A stretch of DNA of 64,000 bases, taken from the NCBI GenBank assembly GCA_017794945.1, contig CP051239.1:1054001-1118000 (forward strand), read 5' to 3'. The translations under genes and the position numbers were made by a program. This stretch comes from Alcanivorax sp. GTDB lineage: Bacteria > Pseudomonadota > Gammaproteobacteria > Pseudomonadales > Alcanivoracaceae. The notes under the pieces are model-generated. The model searched no databases. It was not told the DNA's origin and saw only the letters and a program-made list of their open reading frames with translations. Below, in pieces: positions 1 to 8,110 of this stretch (position 1 is its first letter; each line of letters begins with the position of its first letter).

Positions 1-525
1 CAGGAAATCGAGGCCCCGCCGGACCCAGCTTTTTACCGTCCCCAGGGGCTTGCCCAGGGTGCGCGCCATCTGTCCGTGGCTCAGCCCGTGGAAGTAGGCC
101 ATCTGAATACTGGCCCGGTGCGGATCGCTGAGCTCCCCCAGGCACCGATCCAGACTTTCCTTGTCGGCGCTGGCAAGCGCCGCTTGCTGAGGCTCTACCC
201 CGGCGCTGCGCAACGACTCCTTGAGATCGTCCACGTCCTGATGACCGCGCCGCTGGCGCAACACATCCATACACGCATAGCGACCGATGGAAACAATCCA
301 GGTGACCGGCGAGCCGCGTTCGGGATGGTACTCACCGGCGTGGTGCCAGACTTTTATGTAGACGTCTTGTAACACGTCCTGGGCCTCGTCCCGATTGCCC
401 AGCATACGCAGGCAAAGCCCATACAAACGCGGGGACGTGGCACTGTAGAGCTTCTCGAACGAAGCCAGATCCCCCCTGGATGTATGCGCCATTAGTTTCA
501 CCATTTCCGAAAGTTTTTCGCTCAT
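1..525 (-). CDS. ECF-type RNA polymerase sigma factor (partial, cut by left edge)
   Basis: Sigma-70 family ECF factor that should direct RNA polymerase to a small envelope or stress regulon. Reading the minus strand from ATG at 525 (preceded by GGAGTAG) gives 175 codons open to the window edge. A sigma region 2 is visible (LYGLCLRMLGNRDEAQDVLQ, then WIVSIGRYACMDVLRQR), followed by a region 4 helix-turn-helix (LSHGQMARTLGKPLGTVKSW). The 3' end and any anti-sigma gene lie outside the window. The gene diverges from the DUF4331 operon and carries upstream the same GCATCC-N16-CGTATC motif as that operon, which suggests autoregulation. The SigK/RskA-like or ChrR-like class is my guess from the promoter and layout; the family assignment itself is firm. 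Confidence 0.9.
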   Translation of the reverse strand, partial: MSEKLSEMVKLMAHTSRGDLASFEKLYSATSPRLYGLCLRMLGNRDEAQDVLQDVYIKVWHHAGEYHPERGSPVTWIVSIGRYACMDVLRQRRGHQDVDDLKESLRSAGVEPQQAALASADKESLDRCLGELSDPHRASIQMAYFHGLSHGQMARTLGKPLGTVKSWVRRGLDFL

Positions 526-602
526 GGCGCGTTCTACTCCTTTCTCTACACGCCGCGCTCACATTAGAGAGCCGATTTTCCATCTTAGTCGGTCTCCCCT
601 CT

Positions 603-630
603 GATACGCGGATTACCGCCGATCGGATGC
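603..630 (-). promoter_or_regulatory. Putative ECF promoter of the sigma factor gene
   Basis: On the minus strand, GCATCC (625-630) is followed by 16 nt and CGTATC (603-608), about 80 nt upstream of the sigma factor start. The same two hexamers with the same spacing occur on the plus strand at 655-682. This is the expected arrangement for an autoregulated ECF factor and a divergent target. The motif is read directly; the promoter function is inferred. Confidence 0.7.
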
Positions 631-654
631 AATAAAAAATTATTTTTCTTAAAC

Positions 655-682
655 GCATCCAAACGACTCCCCGGTTCGTATC
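655..682 (+). promoter_or_regulatory. Putative ECF promoter of the DUF4331 operon
   Basis: GCATCC (655-660), 16 nt, then CGTATC (677-682) on the plus strand, 38 nt before the DUF4331 start codon. It is identical in both hexamers and spacing to the minus-strand copy at 603-630. It fits an ECF -35/-10 pair and recalls the published CATCC-type SigK promoters. The transcription start would fall near 690, leaving a leader of about 30 nt that includes the ribosome site GGAGG. Confidence 0.7.
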
Positions 683-719
683 ACGTGTTGATCGCTACCC
701 GAAATACTGGAGGTTCAAA

Positions 720-2270
720 ATGCACAAGATACTTGCCAAGACGCCGCTGGCCCTGGCGATGGCGTCACTGGTTCTGACCGCGCCGTCGGCGCTGGCGTCA
801 AGCCACCGTGAAGCCCCGTTTATCGCCGGCAGTCCGAAAGTGGATGGCACGGACTTTTATATGTTCCGAAGCTACGAGACAAACCGCTCGGACTTCGTAA
901 CTCTGATCGCCAACTACCAGCCGTTGCAAGACGCCTACGGCGGCCCTAATTATTTTCTTCTCGACGATAACGCCATCTACGAAATTCATATCGATAATGA
1001 CGGTGACGCGGTCGAGGATCTGACATTCCAGTTCCAGTTCAATAACGAATACAAAAACCTGGCTGTACCGGCCGGCGCGGACAGCGACACTCCGGTACCT
1101 TTGAGCAACATCGGCCAGATCTCCGCGGGCAACACCGGTGCGTTGAACGTGGAACAAACCTATACCGTGACCATGATCAGCGGCGACCGTCGGACCGGGC
1201 AAGCTCAGGCAATCACCAACGCCAACAGCAGCTCCGAGACCTTCGTCAAACCAATGGATAACATTGGTAATAAATCGATCCCCGATTATCCCGCCTACGC
1301 CAACGACGCCATCTACCCGATCGCCATCCCGGGTTGCGCCACTGACGGCAAGGTATTCGTCGGCCAGCGCAAGGAAGGCTTCGTGGTGAATCTTGGCGAA
1401 GTCTTCGACCTGGTGAACACCAACCCTGTCGGTCCTCGTGACGGCGAACGCAACGTCGTCGGCGATAAGAACGTCACCAGTTTGGCACTGGAGATTCCCA
1501 GAAGCTGCCTGACCGCCGGTGAGAGTCCCGTGATTGGTGGCTGGACCACCGCCAGCGTGCCTCAGGCGCGTGTCATCAACCCGGCCCCGCAGGGTTCATC
1601 GCTCACCGGCTCCGCCGGCGCCAAACCGGCCAGCGTGGAAGGCGGTGCCTTCACCCAGGTTTCCCGTCTCGGCTCTCCCCTGGTGAACGAGGTGGTCATC
1701 GGTCTGCCGGATAAAAACCGCTTTAACGCCAGCGAACCGAAAAACGACGGCCAGTTCGCCCAGTACGTGACCAACCCCAGCTTGCCGGTGCTGCTCAATG
1801 TGCTGTTCGGCGACGCCGCGGTACCGCCGGAGACCCCGCGTAACGATCTGGTCACTGCCTTCCTGACCGGCTTCCCGGGCGTCAACCAGCTGCCCACCGT
1901 GACGCCCAGCGAAATGCTGCGTCTCAACACCGACATCGCACCGACCGCTCCGGCGGATCAGAACGACCTGGGTGTCGTGGGTGGCGATAACGCCGGCTTC
2001 CCGAACGGCCGTCGCCCCTATGACGACGTGGTGGACATCGCCTTGAACGCCGCCATGGGTAAACTCTGTGGCCAGCTTGGCGCCGGTAACTGCGGCTCCC
2101 AGTCCATGCCGCAAAACGGTGCCAACTTCTACACCGACGGCACCCGCGCGGCCGGGCCCACCGCCGCCACTTCGGTGTTGAGCGGTCAGATCGACGGTGA
2201 CGACACCTACTTGCCCGTGTTCCCGTACCTGGCGAATCCGATCCCCGGCTCCCCCAGCGATGCACTCTGA
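720..2270 (+). CDS. Secreted DUF4331 family protein
   Basis: 516-residue exported protein. A signal peptide runs to about residue 26 (cleavage PSALA|SSHREAP); the SSHREAP start of the mature chain and the following TDFYMF are typical of DUF4331. Residues 91-100 contain an acidic loop (IDNDGDAVED) that looks like a calcium site. The molecular function of the family is unknown to me. It is the first gene of an operon with a small lipoprotein, a TPR protein and a HupE/UreJ protein, and sits behind a probable ECF promoter. ATG 720 has a good ribosome site (TGGAGG). Family confidence is high; role unknown. Confidence 0.9.
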   Translation: MHKILAKTPLALAMASLVLTAPSALASSHREAPFIAGSPKVDGTDFYMFRSYETNRSDFVTLIANYQPLQDAYGGPNYFLLDDNAIYEIHIDNDGDAVEDLTFQFQFNNEYKNLAVPAGADSDTPVPLSNIGQISAGNTGALNVEQTYTVTMISGDRRTGQAQAITNANSSSETFVKPMDNIGNKSIPDYPAYANDAIYPIAIPGCATDGKVFVGQRKEGFVVNLGEVFDLVNTNPVGPRDGERNVVGDKNVTSLALEIPRSCLTAGESPVIGGWTTASVPQARVINPAPQGSSLTGSAGAKPASVEGGAFTQVSRLGSPLVNEVVIGLPDKNRFNASEPKNDGQFAQYVTNPSLPVLLNVLFGDAAVPPETPRNDLVTAFLTGFPGVNQLPTVTPSEMLRLNTDIAPTAPADQNDLGVVGGDNAGFPNGRRPYDDVVDIALNAAMGKLCGQLGAGNCGSQSMPQNGANFYTDGTRAAGPTAATSVLSGQIDGDDTYLPVFPYLANPIPGSPSDAL

Positions 2271-2284
2271 TAAGGAGCAAACCG

Positions 2285-2524
2285 ATGCGAGCAATCAGCC
2301 ATAGTGTTCTGCTGCTGGGTCTGGTGGTCGGACTGGCCGCCTGCGGCGGCGACAGCAACGACGACCCGGTGGTGCGGAACGACACCAACTTTACTGCCTT
2401 CGTGAAGAATCAGTTGGCGGCGGACCCGAACGGCGAGCCGGTCAACATCAACAACCGAAACTTCCGTTTCACCAACCAGGAAAACCCGGATGCCTATGAC
2501 GACGTCCTCTCGAGCAACAATTAA
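2285..2524 (+). CDS. Small lipoprotein, function unknown
   Basis: 79-residue protein with a lipobox (GLAAC, lipidated Cys20) followed by GGDSNDD, so probably anchored in the outer membrane. The mature part of about 60 residues is polar and rich in Asn and Asp, with no domain I recognise. It starts 14 nt after the DUF4331 gene behind AAGGAG, and its last 35 nt overlap the start of the TPR gene, so it is translated as part of the operon. It may be an accessory partner of the DUF4331 protein; this is inferred from position only. Confidence 0.75.
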   Translation: MRAISHSVLLLGLVVGLAACGGDSNDDPVVRNDTNFTAFVKNQLAADPNGEPVNINNRNFRFTNQENPDAYDDVLSSNN

Positions 2525-3725
2525 AGGACGGGGTATCCTGCAACGGCTCCGGCGGCTCACGCTGCCGGGGCTGTTCCTTTTTCTGGGCGGCGCCTGCGGC
2601 GGTCTTGCCGTGGCGGCGCCCTACACCCCCGAATCCGATGATCAAGTCCTGCAACGGCTGCCCAAGCCGGAGGTACTGGCGGGCGCCGGCGCGCTGCAAA
2701 CGCAACTGGCCGCGTCCCCCGGGGACCTGGCCACCGCCGAGCGGCTGGCGCGCCTCTACATTCAAGCGGCGCAGCGCGAGGGCGATCCCCGTTATCTGGG
2801 TTACGCCAGCGCCACACTGGCGCCCTGGATGGAACGCGCCGACCCGCCAGCGACCGTCCAGGTGCTGGCCGCCACCATCGCGCAGGGGGAACACCGCTTC
2901 ACCCAGGCTCGGCATCTCTTGGCCCAGGCGCTGAAGGAAAACCCACGCCTCGGTCAAGGCTGGCTGACCCTGGCCGTGGTGACGCAGGTCCAGGGGCAAT
3001 ACGCGGCCAGCCTGGACGCCTGCCGCAACGCCGCCAACCTGGTGCCCACCGGCGCCGCACTGACCTGCCAGGCGAGCGTGCTGGCCCTGAGCGGCCAACT
3101 GACGCCGGCCTATACCAAGCTGCAACGCTATGCCTCCGCCGCCACCGACACGCCCGATGACGTGGCGGTATGGATGCAAACCCGGTTGGCGGAAATGGCC
3201 TGGCAACAGGGCGACCGACAAGCCGCCCTGGCCCATATCGAGGCCGGTCGCGACATCGATAGCGACGATCGCTATCTTCGCAACCTCTACGCGGACTGGC
3301 TGATCACCGAGTCACGTCCGCAAGCCGCCATCACCTTGCTCCAGCCCCACGCTGACCAGGACGGCGCCCTGCTGCGCCTGGCGATCGCCGGCATCGAGGC
3401 CGAGGACCGGCGCGCGGATCTTTGGGCGCAACAGTTCCGGGACCGGATGGCGGCGGCGCAACGCAGCGCCGAATTCGCGCATCTCCGCGAGCTGGCGCGT
3501 TTCCATCTGATCGTGGAGCAGGACCCGGAGGCCGCCCTCACCCTGGCGAGCGACAACTGGCGTACCCAGAAGGAACCCGCCGACATGCACATCTATCTGG
3601 CGGCGGCGCAAGCCGCCGGTGATCCGGCGGCGGCGCAGGCGGTACGCGTCTTTATCGCCGAACACGGTCTTCAGGACGCCCGCCTGGCGCCGTTCCTGGA
3701 GCCCGGCAAGGAGGCTGGTTCATGA
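2490..3725 (+). CDS. Exported TPR-repeat protein
   Basis: 411-residue protein with a hydrophobic export signal (LPGLFLFLGGACGGLAVAA, ending about residue 43) and then helical repeats that read as TPR-like units (for example WLTLAVVTQVQGQYAASLDA and ALAHIEAGRDIDSDDRYLRN). TPR arrays mediate protein-protein contacts, so this may be a periplasmic scaffold for the operon products. The start at 2490 is preceded by CAGGAAA and lies inside the end of the lipoprotein gene; no better in-frame start is visible. Its stop overlaps the HupE start (ATGA). The specific partner is unknown. Confidence 0.8.
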   Translation: MPMTTSSRATIKGRGILQRLRRLTLPGLFLFLGGACGGLAVAAPYTPESDDQVLQRLPKPEVLAGAGALQTQLAASPGDLATAERLARLYIQAAQREGDPRYLGYASATLAPWMERADPPATVQVLAATIAQGEHRFTQARHLLAQALKENPRLGQGWLTLAVVTQVQGQYAASLDACRNAANLVPTGAALTCQASVLALSGQLTPAYTKLQRYASAATDTPDDVAVWMQTRLAEMAWQQGDRQAALAHIEAGRDIDSDDRYLRNLYADWLITESRPQAAITLLQPHADQDGALLRLAIAGIEAEDRRADLWAQQFRDRMAAAQRSAEFAHLRELARFHLIVEQDPEAALTLASDNWRTQKEPADMHIYLAAAQAAGDPAAAQAVRVFIAEHGLQDARLAPFLEPGKEAGS

Positions 3726-4849
3726 GCCGACTCGTCCTGTTACTGCTGCTGCTCATCCCCACCTTGGCGTTGGCCCACAAGCCCAGCGACAGCTACCTGA
3801 GCCTCACCGTGGAGGATGGCGGCACCCTCTCCGGGCAGTGGGACATCGCCCTGCGCGACCTGGAGCGCGCGGTGGGGGTGGACCGTAATCGCGACGCCGC
3901 CATTACCTGGGGGGAACTCAAGGCAAGCCGTGATGAGCTGCGCGACCACATTCTCAGCCGCCTCACCGTCACCGCCCGCAACGAAGACCGTGAACGCGTC
4001 TGCGTGCTGGACAACGTCGACCTCAAAGTGGACGACCACGTGGACGGCGCCTACGCGGTGTTTTTATTGAACGGCGACTGCGGTATGTCACCGTTGGCGC
4101 TGACCCTGAACTACCGGTTTCTGTTTGACCGCGACGCCAGCCACCAGGGTTTGGTGGACGTTCGCTTCGGCGACGGCTCCAGCCAGGCGGTAGCGCTCAG
4201 CAACGCGCACCGCGAGCAAACCCTGCGTCGCGATGGCGGTAACGGTCTAACGGCGCTGGCCACATTCTTCCGTCAGGGCGTGCACCATATCCTGATCGGC
4301 TACGACCACATCCTGTTTCTGCTGACCCTGCTGTTCCCGGCGGTGCTGGTGTGGCGCCAGGGCGCCTGGCAGCCCAAGGAGTCCATGCGCGAGTCCCTGC
4401 TGACCACTCTGGGCATCGTCACCGCCTTCACCGTGACCCACTCGCTGACGCTGGCGCTGGCCTCGCTGGGACTGGTCAATCTGCCGTCCTGGCTGGTGGA
4501 ATCGGCGATCGCGATCACCGTGGGTCTGGGAGCGGCCAGTAACCTGGCGCCCCAGTACTTCCCTCGTCGCTGGGTGATGGCTCTGGTGTTCGGTCTGATC
4601 CACGGATTGGGCTTCGCCGCCGTGCTCAGCGACCTGGGGCTGGAGGGAGGCAGTCTGGTGCTGACCCTGCTGGGCTTTAACCTCGGGGTGGAAGCCGGCC
4701 AGGCACTGATCGTGCTGGTCTTCGTGCCGGCGGCGTTCCTGGTACGCCGCACCGCCGCCTACCGGCGCTGGTTCGTGCCGATCGGTTCGGTGGCGATTAT
4801 CGCCATCGCCAGCGTCTGGGCGGTGGAGCGGCTAAGCGGGGCTCTGTGA
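3722..4849 (+). CDS. HupE/UreJ family membrane protein
   Basis: 375-residue integral membrane protein. A signal sequence (to about Ala18) is followed by a periplasmic domain of about 160 residues, then about six membrane helices with the family's His motif (HHILIGYDHILFLLTLL) and VFGLIHGLGFA. HupE/UreJ members are linked to nickel or cobalt uptake, but long versions with an N-terminal domain like this one occur away from hydrogenase and urease genes, and none are seen here. The N-terminal domain holds a canonical EF-hand loop at residues 54-65 (DRNRDAAITWGE). It is translationally coupled to the TPR gene by a 4-nt overlap. Substrate unknown. Confidence 0.85.
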   Translation: MSRLVLLLLLLIPTLALAHKPSDSYLSLTVEDGGTLSGQWDIALRDLERAVGVDRNRDAAITWGELKASRDELRDHILSRLTVTARNEDRERVCVLDNVDLKVDDHVDGAYAVFLLNGDCGMSPLALTLNYRFLFDRDASHQGLVDVRFGDGSSQAVALSNAHREQTLRRDGGNGLTALATFFRQGVHHILIGYDHILFLLTLLFPAVLVWRQGAWQPKESMRESLLTTLGIVTAFTVTHSLTLALASLGLVNLPSWLVESAIAITVGLGAASNLAPQYFPRRWVMALVFGLIHGLGFAAVLSDLGLEGGSLVLTLLGFNLGVEAGQALIVLVFVPAAFLVRRTAAYRRWFVPIGSVAIIAIASVWAVERLSGAL

Positions 4850-4850
4850 A

Positions 4851-4882
4851 GCGGGAACGGACGGTTTCCCGTCCGTTCCCGC
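4851..4882. terminator. Hairpin between convergent HupE and acylase genes
   Basis: A perfect 14-bp stem (4851-4864 with 4869-4882) with loop TTTC lies 1 nt after the HupE stop and 10 nt before the end of the acylase gene. There is no long T-run, so it may act as a bidirectional terminator or an mRNA 3'-end stabiliser. Confidence 0.6.
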
Positions 4883-4892
4883 CCGCTTGCGT

Positions 4893-7223
4893 TTACTCAC
4901 TGATCTCAGTGATGGAGAGACGAGCGTTCTTGATTTGCTCACGGGTAAACGGCACCCGGTGCCACTGCTTGCGCGAGTAGGCTTCGGTGTAATCCGAATA
5001 GTGGGGGCTGGTGGGATCGGTCGACACGCCGTGGCTTAACATGGTGTAGGCGCGCACCGGCTCGCCCTCCGGGAAATCCACCACGTGCATATAGGTGTTC
5101 CTCAGCACGGTGAAATAGCCTTCGTAGCCCTCGCCACCGTATTGCGGGATGTCGGTGCCGGCCTTGGCGTAGGTCTGCACCTCACCCAAGGGCGCGTCCA
5201 GAGCCTGGCCGCTGTCCACCACATCGGCGACGCCGTCGTTAAAGCCCTGCTGCACGGCGCCGATCACGGCGCTGTCGCCCGTGTTCAAACCGGACGGGGT
5301 ATGCACCGGGTCGTTGGCGTCGAAGGGCACGGCGTACAGGTTTTCGATGTCGTAGAGATGGAGCCAGATCGCGGACCAGAGGTGAGCGCCCACGGCATTC
5401 AGATTGCCGGTGTTGTCCCAGTTCTGGAGCACCTGGCAGGCCAGCTGTTGGTCGGCGCTCAGGGTGCCGCCGCACACCGCCGCGAGCACCGGCTCCTTGA
5501 GCAACTCGGCACTGAGTACCCGGCTGTTGAGAACAATGTCCCGCAGCCGCACGCTGTTGATCTGGGAACCGGCGAAGCCGTCGCGGCTGTTGAAGCGGTC
5601 CTCCACCAGGGTATGGCCCATACGACTGCGCAGGCTCTGGGCGTAATCTTCCTGGCCCATGATCGCGGCGAAACCGGTGAGCGGCGCGTCCGGGTTGGTC
5701 AACCAATAGCTGTCGTTCATGTTGGCGACGTAGTCACGCCGGAACAGGTGCGGCAGATTGGACGGCCCGAAGGCGCCGGGCAGCACCGCATCCGGGTCCT
5801 GCCGCCAATCGCAGGCGGAACTGGCGCCGTTGAGCAGCGGCAGGCCCGCGCCCAGCGCCGCGACCTGACAGCCGCCGAGCAGGCTGTCCGGCACATTGGG
5901 CACGGCGGTGATGTCGGAGTACAGGGCGCGGTCATCGCCCCGGCCGATGGCGGTGGTGTTCACCCAGGGAATGCCCACATGCTCGTTGATGGCGGCAAAG
6001 AAATCGTCCAGGGATTCCGCCTTATCGAAGGCCAGGAAGTTTTGGAACGAGCGCGTGTTTTCCAGGTTGACGTCACGCAGGGTGATCGCCGTGGTGTCGC
6101 TCCATGCCGGCAGACCCGGATTGCCGAAATCGATCATGGGGCCGTACTCGGAGCGGTACAGGGTTTTGGTCTTGGGAGTCAGGGAACCGTCCGGTTGCTT
6201 GATCTGGATGGTAATGTCCACCGCTTCCAGGGCCTTCTGCTGGCCATCCTTGATGTAATGGGTCTCGTCGGCCATTTGCAAAAGATACGGCGTGAAACGA
6301 CGCGCCGTGGACACGGTGTGTGTCCAGGCAATGTCGTTATTGAAACCGAGCAGCACCATGGGCGCGCCCATGATCGATACGCCGGACACGTTCAGTTCGC
6401 CGGGAATCGTCATCTGCAGTTGATAGAAGCGGTCCACGCCTTCCAGATACCAGTGCGGGTTACCGAACAGCAGGCCACCGCCTGACTCCGTGGCATCGCC
6501 GCCGAACGCCAGGGTATTGCTGCCGATCCCTTCCTCGCCGCCAACCCAGAAGCGGTGATCATCCTGGGCTTCGCTCACCAGGCGTCTGGCGCTTGCGGAG
6601 GGCGGTTGAGCGCTGACGATCTCTTCCAGCAGATTGGCGCTGCTGGCGGCCAGGTTCAGGGCCACCAGGCGCCGGAACACGTCCTGCTCGGTGACCGGCG
6701 CCAGCCAGGGCTCGCCCCGACAGTCGAGGTGGCGGCCGGCGTGGTCGCCGCCTTTCACTTCCCGGACATAACGGCTGAAACCGGCGGCGAAGCCGCGCGA
6801 CAGTTGGCGTACGTCCGCCGGTTGAGCATCGCGGAACATGGCCACCTGGTCGTCGTTGACGACGAAGCGGAAGAAGAAATCGGCGTCCTCGTTCCTGGGG
6901 GCGCCAAAGGTGCCCATCGGCGCGGCCTCGGCGTCCGGCCCGAAGTATTGGGAACGCTCGCCGCGGAAAGTGACGAAGGCGGAGGCCAGCACGCACAGGT
7001 TGTCCTCGGCGATGGCGTAGCCATGCCCATAGCCGGCGCCGCCGTAGCTGTTCGAGGTGATGTGGGGAACACCGTAGGTGGTGCGTTCGATGGTGGCTTG
7101 ATAGCCGGCGCCGGTGTCCAAGGCGGCGCGGTCACTGCTGTCGCCGCCGCAGGCGGACAACGCCAGGGTGCCGGCGATCAGGCACCAGGGCGCCCACACC
7201 GACGGTCGGATAAATGCGTTCAT
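4893..7223 (-). CDS. Lipoprotein penicillin/AHL acylase family (Ntn hydrolase)
   Basis: 776-residue Ntn-hydrolase related to penicillin G acylase, aculeacin acylase and acyl-homoserine-lactone acylases. These are made as a precursor that cleaves itself before a Ser that becomes the catalytic N-terminus of the beta subunit. The expected site is visible as GIGSNTLAFGG with Ser235. TTYGVPHI near residue 50 and GHGYAIAEDN near 67 are typical of the alpha subunit. A lipobox (ALSAC, Cys25, then GGDSS) indicates an outer-membrane lipoprotein, unlike the usual soluble periplasmic acylases. An AraC regulator lies just upstream on the same strand. The amide substrate (lactone signal, lipopeptide or other) cannot be told from sequence. 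Confidence 0.88.
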   Translation of the reverse strand: MNAFIRPSVWAPWCLIAGTLALSACGGDSSDRAALDTGAGYQATIERTTYGVPHITSNSYGGAGYGHGYAIAEDNLCVLASAFVTFRGERSQYFGPDAEAAPMGTFGAPRNEDADFFFRFVVNDDQVAMFRDAQPADVRQLSRGFAAGFSRYVREVKGGDHAGRHLDCRGEPWLAPVTEQDVFRRLVALNLAASSANLLEEIVSAQPPSASARRLVSEAQDDHRFWVGGEEGIGSNTLAFGGDATESGGGLLFGNPHWYLEGVDRFYQLQMTIPGELNVSGVSIMGAPMVLLGFNNDIAWTHTVSTARRFTPYLLQMADETHYIKDGQQKALEAVDITIQIKQPDGSLTPKTKTLYRSEYGPMIDFGNPGLPAWSDTTAITLRDVNLENTRSFQNFLAFDKAESLDDFFAAINEHVGIPWVNTTAIGRGDDRALYSDITAVPNVPDSLLGGCQVAALGAGLPLLNGASSACDWRQDPDAVLPGAFGPSNLPHLFRRDYVANMNDSYWLTNPDAPLTGFAAIMGQEDYAQSLRSRMGHTLVEDRFNSRDGFAGSQINSVRLRDIVLNSRVLSAELLKEPVLAAVCGGTLSADQQLACQVLQNWDNTGNLNAVGAHLWSAIWLHLYDIENLYAVPFDANDPVHTPSGLNTGDSAVIGAVQQGFNDGVADVVDSGQALDAPLGEVQTYAKAGTDIPQYGGEGYEGYFTVLRNTYMHVVDFPEGEPVRAYTMLSHGVSTDPTSPHYSDYTEAYSRKQWHRVPFTREQIKNARLSITEISE

Positions 7224-7342: not shown

Positions 7343-8110
7343 CTAAAGCATGTGCACCTTCATCCCCTTGGCGACATAGGACGGGGTCAAACCGAAGAAA
7401 TGCTTCAAGGTGCGCGCCAGATGGGCGCCGTCGGAAAAGCCCACGTCGTAGGCGATGTCGGACAGCGATTCCCCCCGCGCGATCAGTTCCACCGCGCGAC
7501 GCATGCGCGCCCATAGCGTATAGCTCTTGATGGAGATGCCCAGCTTGTCGGAAAACACATGGGTGAGCCGGTGGGCGGACAGCCCCACCTCGGCGCCGAG
7601 CTCTTCCAGGGTGCTGGCCAGCGGCAGCTCTTTCTTGATCTTCTGCGCGATATGGATCACCCGCATGTCCATGGGCATGCGGATCGGTCGGTAATCACTC
7701 AGGGCCCTGGGCAGCGAGGTGGTCAGGCGAAACAGTGACGCGTTGTCCAGCTCACCACGACCGGCGGCGGCAATCGACTGCCGGCTCAAAGCCCCCTGCC
7801 GGAGAATCACCGGGCGCACCGCGTGGCGACCCAGCATCGCCGCCAGGCTGTGGTACTCGTAGCTTTGCGGATCGAAGTTCAACGACAGCAGCGGCGCGCG
7901 GCGCGCGTCCAGCGAGCGCGGCACGTCGTGACCCACCAGCGCGGCCTGGTAGCTCCGCTGCTTGCCCTGTGCGTCACCGAGCGTAAAGCCTTCGTCCCCC
8001 AGGGAGACCAACAGAGTGACCGTATAGCGGCGGGTGATACCGGCGACGATCGCCCCGGTTAAATACAGAAAGCGGTCGTCCCAGACGTAGAGATGATTTT
8101 CACCAACCAT
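7343..8110 (-). CDS. AraC family transcriptional regulator
   Basis: 255-residue regulator. The N-terminal part (1-150) is an effector-binding domain I cannot assign. The C-terminal 100 residues hold the two AraC helix-turn-helix motifs (LEELGAEVGLSAHRLTHVFS and LSDIAYDVGFSDGAHLARTL). It lies 119 nt upstream of the acylase gene on the same strand and 35 nt after the CvfB-like gene, so it may be co-transcribed with the latter and control the acylase. A 7-bp inverted repeat (CCGGTCC/GGACCGG) sits in the gap before the acylase. The target is inferred from proximity. Confidence 0.88.
   Translation of the reverse strand: MVGENHLYVWDDRFLYLTGAIVAGITRRYTVTLLVSLGDEGFTLGDAQGKQRSYQAALVGHDVPRSLDARRAPLLSLNFDPQSYEYHSLAAMLGRHAVRPVILRQGALSRQSIAAAGRGELDNASLFRLTTSLPRALSDYRPIRMPMDMRVIHIAQKIKKELPLASTLEELGAEVGLSAHRLTHVFSDKLGISIKSYTLWARMRRAVELIARGESLSDIAYDVGFSDGAHLARTLKHFFGLTPSYVAKGMKVHML

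Follow-up and report, generated by a model that had tools for sequence, protein, structure and literature searches.

The DNA between a SigK-like ECF sigma factor gene and a divergent DUF4331 operon very probably carries two promoters of that one sigma factor, one serving its own gene (autoregulation) and the other the operon. In the window, i.e. the whole stretch of 64,000 nucleotides (64 kb) that was analysed, GCATCC-N16-CGTATC is found at 655-682 on the plus strand and at 603-630 on the minus strand, exactly where the initial annotation had placed it. Each copy consists of a -35 element GCATCC, a spacer of 16 nt and a -10 element CGTATC, and both copies face outward. Judged from sequence and conservation, the minus-strand site is the putative promoter of the sigma and anti-sigma genes, and the plus-strand site that of the DUF4331 operon. 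The arrangement is well known in kind; the new element is the target.

The sigma factor and the anti-sigma factor

The sigma factor gene is cut by the window start (1-525, minus strand, ATG end at 525); the complete gene (L051:5980-6525) encodes 181 amino acids. The protein has the ECF composition of regions 2 and 4 only (Pfam Sigma70_r2, 63.3 bits; r4_2, 43.6 bits), and it scores 90.6 bits against 42.9 with the NCBIfam superfamily TIGR02937. The closest PDB sequence is M. tuberculosis SigK (E 2.5e-24), followed by R. sphaeroides RpoE (E 2.6e-21). We call the protein SigK-like rather than SigK because its score with the NCBIfam SigK subfamily PRK09646, 127.9 bits, is below the curated cut-off of 226.

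The anti-sigma gene of the window's genome overlaps the sigma gene, and its product matches Pfam RskA_C (70.7 bits against 29.4); no cupin match was found in it, so it is not classed as ChrR. In all 37 loci described below, the sigma gene is followed by an ORF of 228-265 aa that overlaps it; the RskA_C identity of this ORF is a Pfam result for the window's genome alone. The SigK cysteines are numbered 133 and 183 in PMC7509140; residues 128 and 178 of the window's sigma factor align with them, the SigK chain numbering being inferred, and both cysteines are invariant in 37/37 sigma factors. With its RskA_C neighbour and the two cysteines, the pair is classified from sequence as a SigK-RskA-type system (ECF18/ECF19 in the broad sense).

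The DUF4331 operon

The first gene on the plus strand (720-2270) encodes a DUF4331 protein of 516 aa (Pfam PF14224, 486 bits, cut-off 27) whose N terminus looks like a signal peptide by eye. A small ORF follows at 2285-2524 on the same strand (79 aa, lipoprotein-like by eye); Pfam gives no match for it, and tblastn detects it in 28 of the 36 syntenic loci. The next product is a TPR-repeat protein (2490-3725, plus strand, start codon uncertain; Pfam TPR_2 27.7 bits, cut-off 27), and its gene overlaps by 4 nt that of a HupE/UreJ_2 membrane protein (3722-4849, plus strand; Pfam PF13795, 151 bits). Both of these genes come after DUF4331 in 35/36 syntenic loci, the remaining stretch (L029) ending too early.

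In PDB, the best match to DUF4331 by sequence had an E value of only 0.036. The predicted structure (mean pLDDT 78.5, pTM 0.84) gave no PDB match with Foldseek at E ≤0.001, and with VIA-align a Z of 5.6 at most, mainly with antibody chains. As neither search gave a convincing match, we make no claim on the fold or function of DUF4331. A literature search in one collection for DUF4331, alone or with a sigma factor, found no paper, and the operon seems little studied.

Some further features were seen by eye. DUF4331 has an acidic loop, DNDGDAVED, that resembles an EF-hand calcium site (window 993-1019), and the N-terminal part of the HupE-like protein has an acidic EF-hand-like loop, DRNRDAAITWGE (window 3881-3916). 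The operon is neighboured by a penicillin-acylase-like lipoprotein ORF (4893-7223) and an AraC-type regulator ORF (7343-8110), both on the minus strand. No Rfam match to an RNA element was found in window 1-6000, and no sigma-70-type promoter was found in 500-5000 (0.6 in shuffles).

Conservation of the locus and of the sites

Relatives of the sigma factor were fetched from genome contigs (46 in all). The divergent arrangement with DUF4331 was found in 36 of them (L005-L040), most of them from Alcanivorax or Alloalcanivorax and Marinobacter and a few from other Gammaproteobacteria; the other 10 showed no match to the proteins of the operon. The intergenic regions of these 36 loci and of the window (37 regions) were scored by the number of matches to the 11 core bases GCATCC/CGTAT.

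The sigma-side site scored at least 10/11 in 31 of 37 regions and at least 9/11 in 34, the DUF4331-side site at least 9/11 in 27, and both promoters reached at least 9/11 in 27/37. Conservation in orthologous intergenic regions, which the initial annotation had named as a check, is thus borne out on both sides. L011 is a further case, with a site at 6850-6876 that is parted from the gene by an insertion. The insertion (L011:6578-6840), between the DUF4331 promoter and its gene, is an element with 23-nt inverted ends that appears MITE-like by eye. In L027, L028 and L032 both sides have at most 8/11 against the consensus, and in L038 and L040 the two -35 elements of the same locus are unlike each other.

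Nearly all of the 37 regions have a 16-nt spacer. The conserved core is approximately GCATC(C/T)-N16-CGTA on the sigma side, with a -10 element of CGTA or CGTT on the DUF4331 side; CGTT replaces CGTA there in many Marinobacter loci. The twelve fixed bases of the initial annotation therefore hold for the identical pair in the window, but the twelfth (the final C of CGTATC) is not conserved in relatives. An unguided count of 4-mer dyads found CATC-N17-CGTA in 19 of 21 non-redundant sigma-side regions, compared to at most 4 in mononucleotide shuffles.

Control genes were searched for a site within 250 nt upstream: 22/396 had at least 9/11 and 6/396 at least 10/11. These six include the sigma promoter of L092 and three instances of one Marinobacter peroxiredoxin-like gene. 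We note that this gene, with (T/C)CATCC-N15-CGTAT upstream, is a possible further target (L022:12623-13276, L030:12567-13295, L037:12602-13309 (-)).

A survey of 274 genomes of the class detected DUF4331 in 25, RskA_C in 45 and both in 18, an association with an odds ratio of 21 (p 6e-11) that is uncorrected for descent. Loci were fetched for 21 of the 25 DUF4331 genomes; the window's own was left out, as were G013, G186 and G270 (partial or weak matches). Of the 21 loci, 5 have a divergent sigma gene and 6 have one upstream in the same orientation as DUF4331; in the other 10, some of them near contig ends, none was seen in the stretch. The DUF4331-side site has at least 10/11 in 10 loci, 9/11 in 5 and less in 6; in the 11 loci with a sigma gene, the corresponding sigma-side numbers are 4, 4 and 3. 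The sigma-side copy thus varies more once one leaves the close relatives. Only 5 of 29 RskA-linked sigma genes (30 loci) have a 10/11 site, hence the motif is a feature of only some members of this sigma family.

The sigma factor that probably reads the promoters

The promoters might be read by another ECF sigma factor of the genome, e.g. a SigK-like paralog at G000:C1 ~744 kb, whose gene forms a second pair with RskA_C on the minus strand (L176:4676-5907; G000:C1, ~743.7-744.9 kb). The existence of this pair speaks for such a reading, and ECF promoter cores are short, which makes cross-talk possible. However, the paralog has no such site upstream of its own gene (7/11). The distribution in the genus also points to the linked sigma factor: among 13 genomes, 10 have SigK-like homologs (33-39% identity), whereas the close divergent promoter pair is found only in 3, the same 3 that have DUF4331 and an ortholog of the sigma factor (86-100% identity). 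Some match to the 11-base core is seen in 10/13. On balance we regard recognition by another sigma factor as improbable, and infer that the linked one reads both promoters.

In several genomes the two promoters share unusual features. GCAACT (L032), ACATCC (L105) and TGATCC (L093) are each common to both promoters of one genome, and L031/L097, very probably the same genome, have a spacer of 17 with TG(T/A)AT at both; the L093 sites are individually not significant (p 0.135 and 0.075). G221 has its sigma gene and DUF4331 on separate contigs, and each comes with its own GCATCC..CGTAT site, with spacers of 15 and 16 nt. G097 has a site at the sigma gene but none at the fetched copy of DUF4331 (8/11). 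No region-4 residue that would account for the -35 changes was obvious by eye.

The similarity of the two promoters was assessed over 24 lineages and compared to permutations. The observed value is 255, compared to a permutation mean of 240 and a maximum of 253, i.e. none of 20,000 permutations reached it; the figure is uncorrected for descent. Of 25 lineages entered by hand, L027 was dropped (no credible DUF4331-side site), and L032 represents its clade. Close relatives of entered rows were left out, including L096, a relative of L097, as were L029 and L112 (a doubtful and a missing DUF4331-side site, respectively) and L094, L095, L099 and L102 (no good sigma-side site).

Distance between the two -35 elements

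The two -35 elements are separated in the window by 24 nt (631-654). The gap measures 15-25 nt for the remaining Alcanivorax-type loci, L018, L019 and L031 (15 nt in L007; 22 nt in L011, measured by hand), 27-48 nt in most Marinobacter loci and 237 nt in L021. In L033, L036 and L037 it amounts to ~1.29 kb, and both sites are retained; an insert of ~1.25 kb that looks coding parts the two promoters there. The gap is rich in A+T in the window (92%) and in Alcanivorax-type loci (83-100%), whereas most Marinobacter loci have just 44-66% A+T there. For the Alcanivorax lineage we read the gap as probable UP-like DNA common to both promoters.

The arms GGATGC...GCATCC form an inverted repeat, 22-25 nt apart in most Alcanivorax-type loci, and could in principle be a dyad operator for a transcription factor, the -10-like parts being incidental. 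Yet CGTA is conserved along with the arms at a fixed spacing of 16 nt, while the distance between the arms is not fixed: it ranges from the 15 nt of L007 to the ~1.29 kb of L033, L036 and L037, with both sites kept. Moreover, several class loci (L095, L099) have a single site before DUF4331 without a mirror copy. A dyad operator is thus very unlikely, and the sites are better described as two promoters.

Frequency of the motif in the genome

With spacers of 14-19, the 12-base pattern has 2 matches in the window compared to a mean of 0.03 in dinucleotide shuffles, and 0/100 shuffles reach 2, which upholds the view that chance hardly explains the pair. In the whole genome (3.14 Mb) it has 4 matches with spacers 15-17, and the reversed pattern has 0. 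The shorter core GCATCC-N15-17-CGTA shows no genome-wide excess (6 sites vs 11 for the reversed control). What is distinctive is the close divergent pair plus its conservation, not the genome-wide frequency. That two 12-base matches arose by chance within an A+T-rich intergenic stretch, a reading with which the frequency of the short core would agree, is effectively excluded, since the sites keep their place, spacing and direction in different genera.

Besides the pair there are four core sites, three of them within long ORFs; the remaining one overlaps the 3' end of a peptidase-like ORF, ~235 nt ahead of a pyrD-like ORF (names by eye). No convincing extra promoter was found among the short-core sites of the window's genome, so the motif search that was to reveal the regulon failed to do so. 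The claim that a sigma factor, its promoter and its target operon lie in one place is supported by conservation, with no regulon defined beyond the locus in this genome.

ChrR-type partners

At five class loci (L092, L093, L094, L105 and L112) the sigma factor beside DUF4331 is of another lineage. These five proteins group in one clade (support 0.98) with the second sigma factor that L018 and L019 each have. The partner of this lineage is a ChrR-like cupin, identified by Pfam Cupin_7 in L092, L093, L105 and L018 and read by eye in L094, L112 and L019. RskA_C is missing from 7 of the 25 DUF4331 genomes, and these five belong to that group. Four of them have GCATCC, TGATCC or ACATCC with N16-CGTAT before DUF4331, and L112 has none. 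In L018 (8423-9452), and at the same place in L019, the sigma-ChrR-cupin pair comes directly after the sigma-RskA pair.

We consider it an evenly balanced question whether the DUF4331 operon and its (GC/TG/AC)ATCC-N16-CGTA promoter are a fixed output module, to which SigK-like/RskA or RpoE-type/ChrR sensors are attached in different bacteria, and both in tandem in L018/L019.

Proposed mechanism and known systems

The preferred reading is that of two divergent promoters of one SigK-like sigma factor. By analogy with SigK-RskA (as described in PMC7509140), the RskA-type and apparently membrane-anchored anti-sigma factor would keep the sigma factor inactive until a signal at the cell envelope frees it. 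Our best guess for this signal is redox, because the SigK cysteines are invariant in 37/37 and ChrR-type systems elsewhere respond to singlet oxygen or peroxide (PMC5507510, PMC4336711). The free sigma factor would bring RNA polymerase to GCATC(C/T)-N16-CGT promoters. The minus promoter would then raise sigma and anti-sigma, as in ECF autoregulation (PMC3817407), and the plus promoter would make the DUF4331 - lipoprotein-like - TPR - HupE/UreJ products of what may be an envelope operon.

Several promoters of related systems are available for comparison. The mycobacterial SigK promoter consensus is CCATCC-N16/17-CGAAT. Among SigK-RskA systems, the mpt83-sigK-rskA cassette of mycobacteria and Yersinia includes a SigK site (PMC7509140). 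The window agrees with SigK-RskA in its nearest sigma factor of solved structure, its RskA_C anti-sigma factor, the two aligned cysteines and a target that adjoins the pair with its own site; unlike in that cassette, the target is the DUF4331 operon instead of mpt83 and is divergently transcribed.

For RpoE-ChrR (ECF11), PMC4336711 gives the Shewanella rpoE2-chrR promoter as TGATCC-N16-CGTATT, with a mapped start, and PMC5507510 that of P. syringae PSPTO_1043, an RpoE-ChrR homolog, as TGATCC-N16-CGTA. The window's promoters have the same 16-nt spacing and the CGTA of the -10, and TGATCC-N16-CGTAT on both sides of L093 resembles this promoter. On the other hand, the partner of the window's sigma factor is RskA, and its -35 begins with GC, not TG. 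Autoregulation, in which the sigma factor reads a promoter upstream of its own gene, is described as usual for ECF sigma factors (PMC3817407); the window adds a second copy that faces a conserved divergent target over a short A+T-rich gap.

DUF4331, a Pfam family of no known function, thus gains a candidate regulator, a candidate promoter and a probable stress context, and the paired promoters could readily serve as a two-sided reporter in the search for the signal. The switching between RskA and ChrR partners offers a natural example for studying how a single target may exchange its sensor. If the output module is real, it would link redox or singlet-oxygen stress to an unstudied envelope operon and would be an instance of regulator replacement at a conserved promoter.
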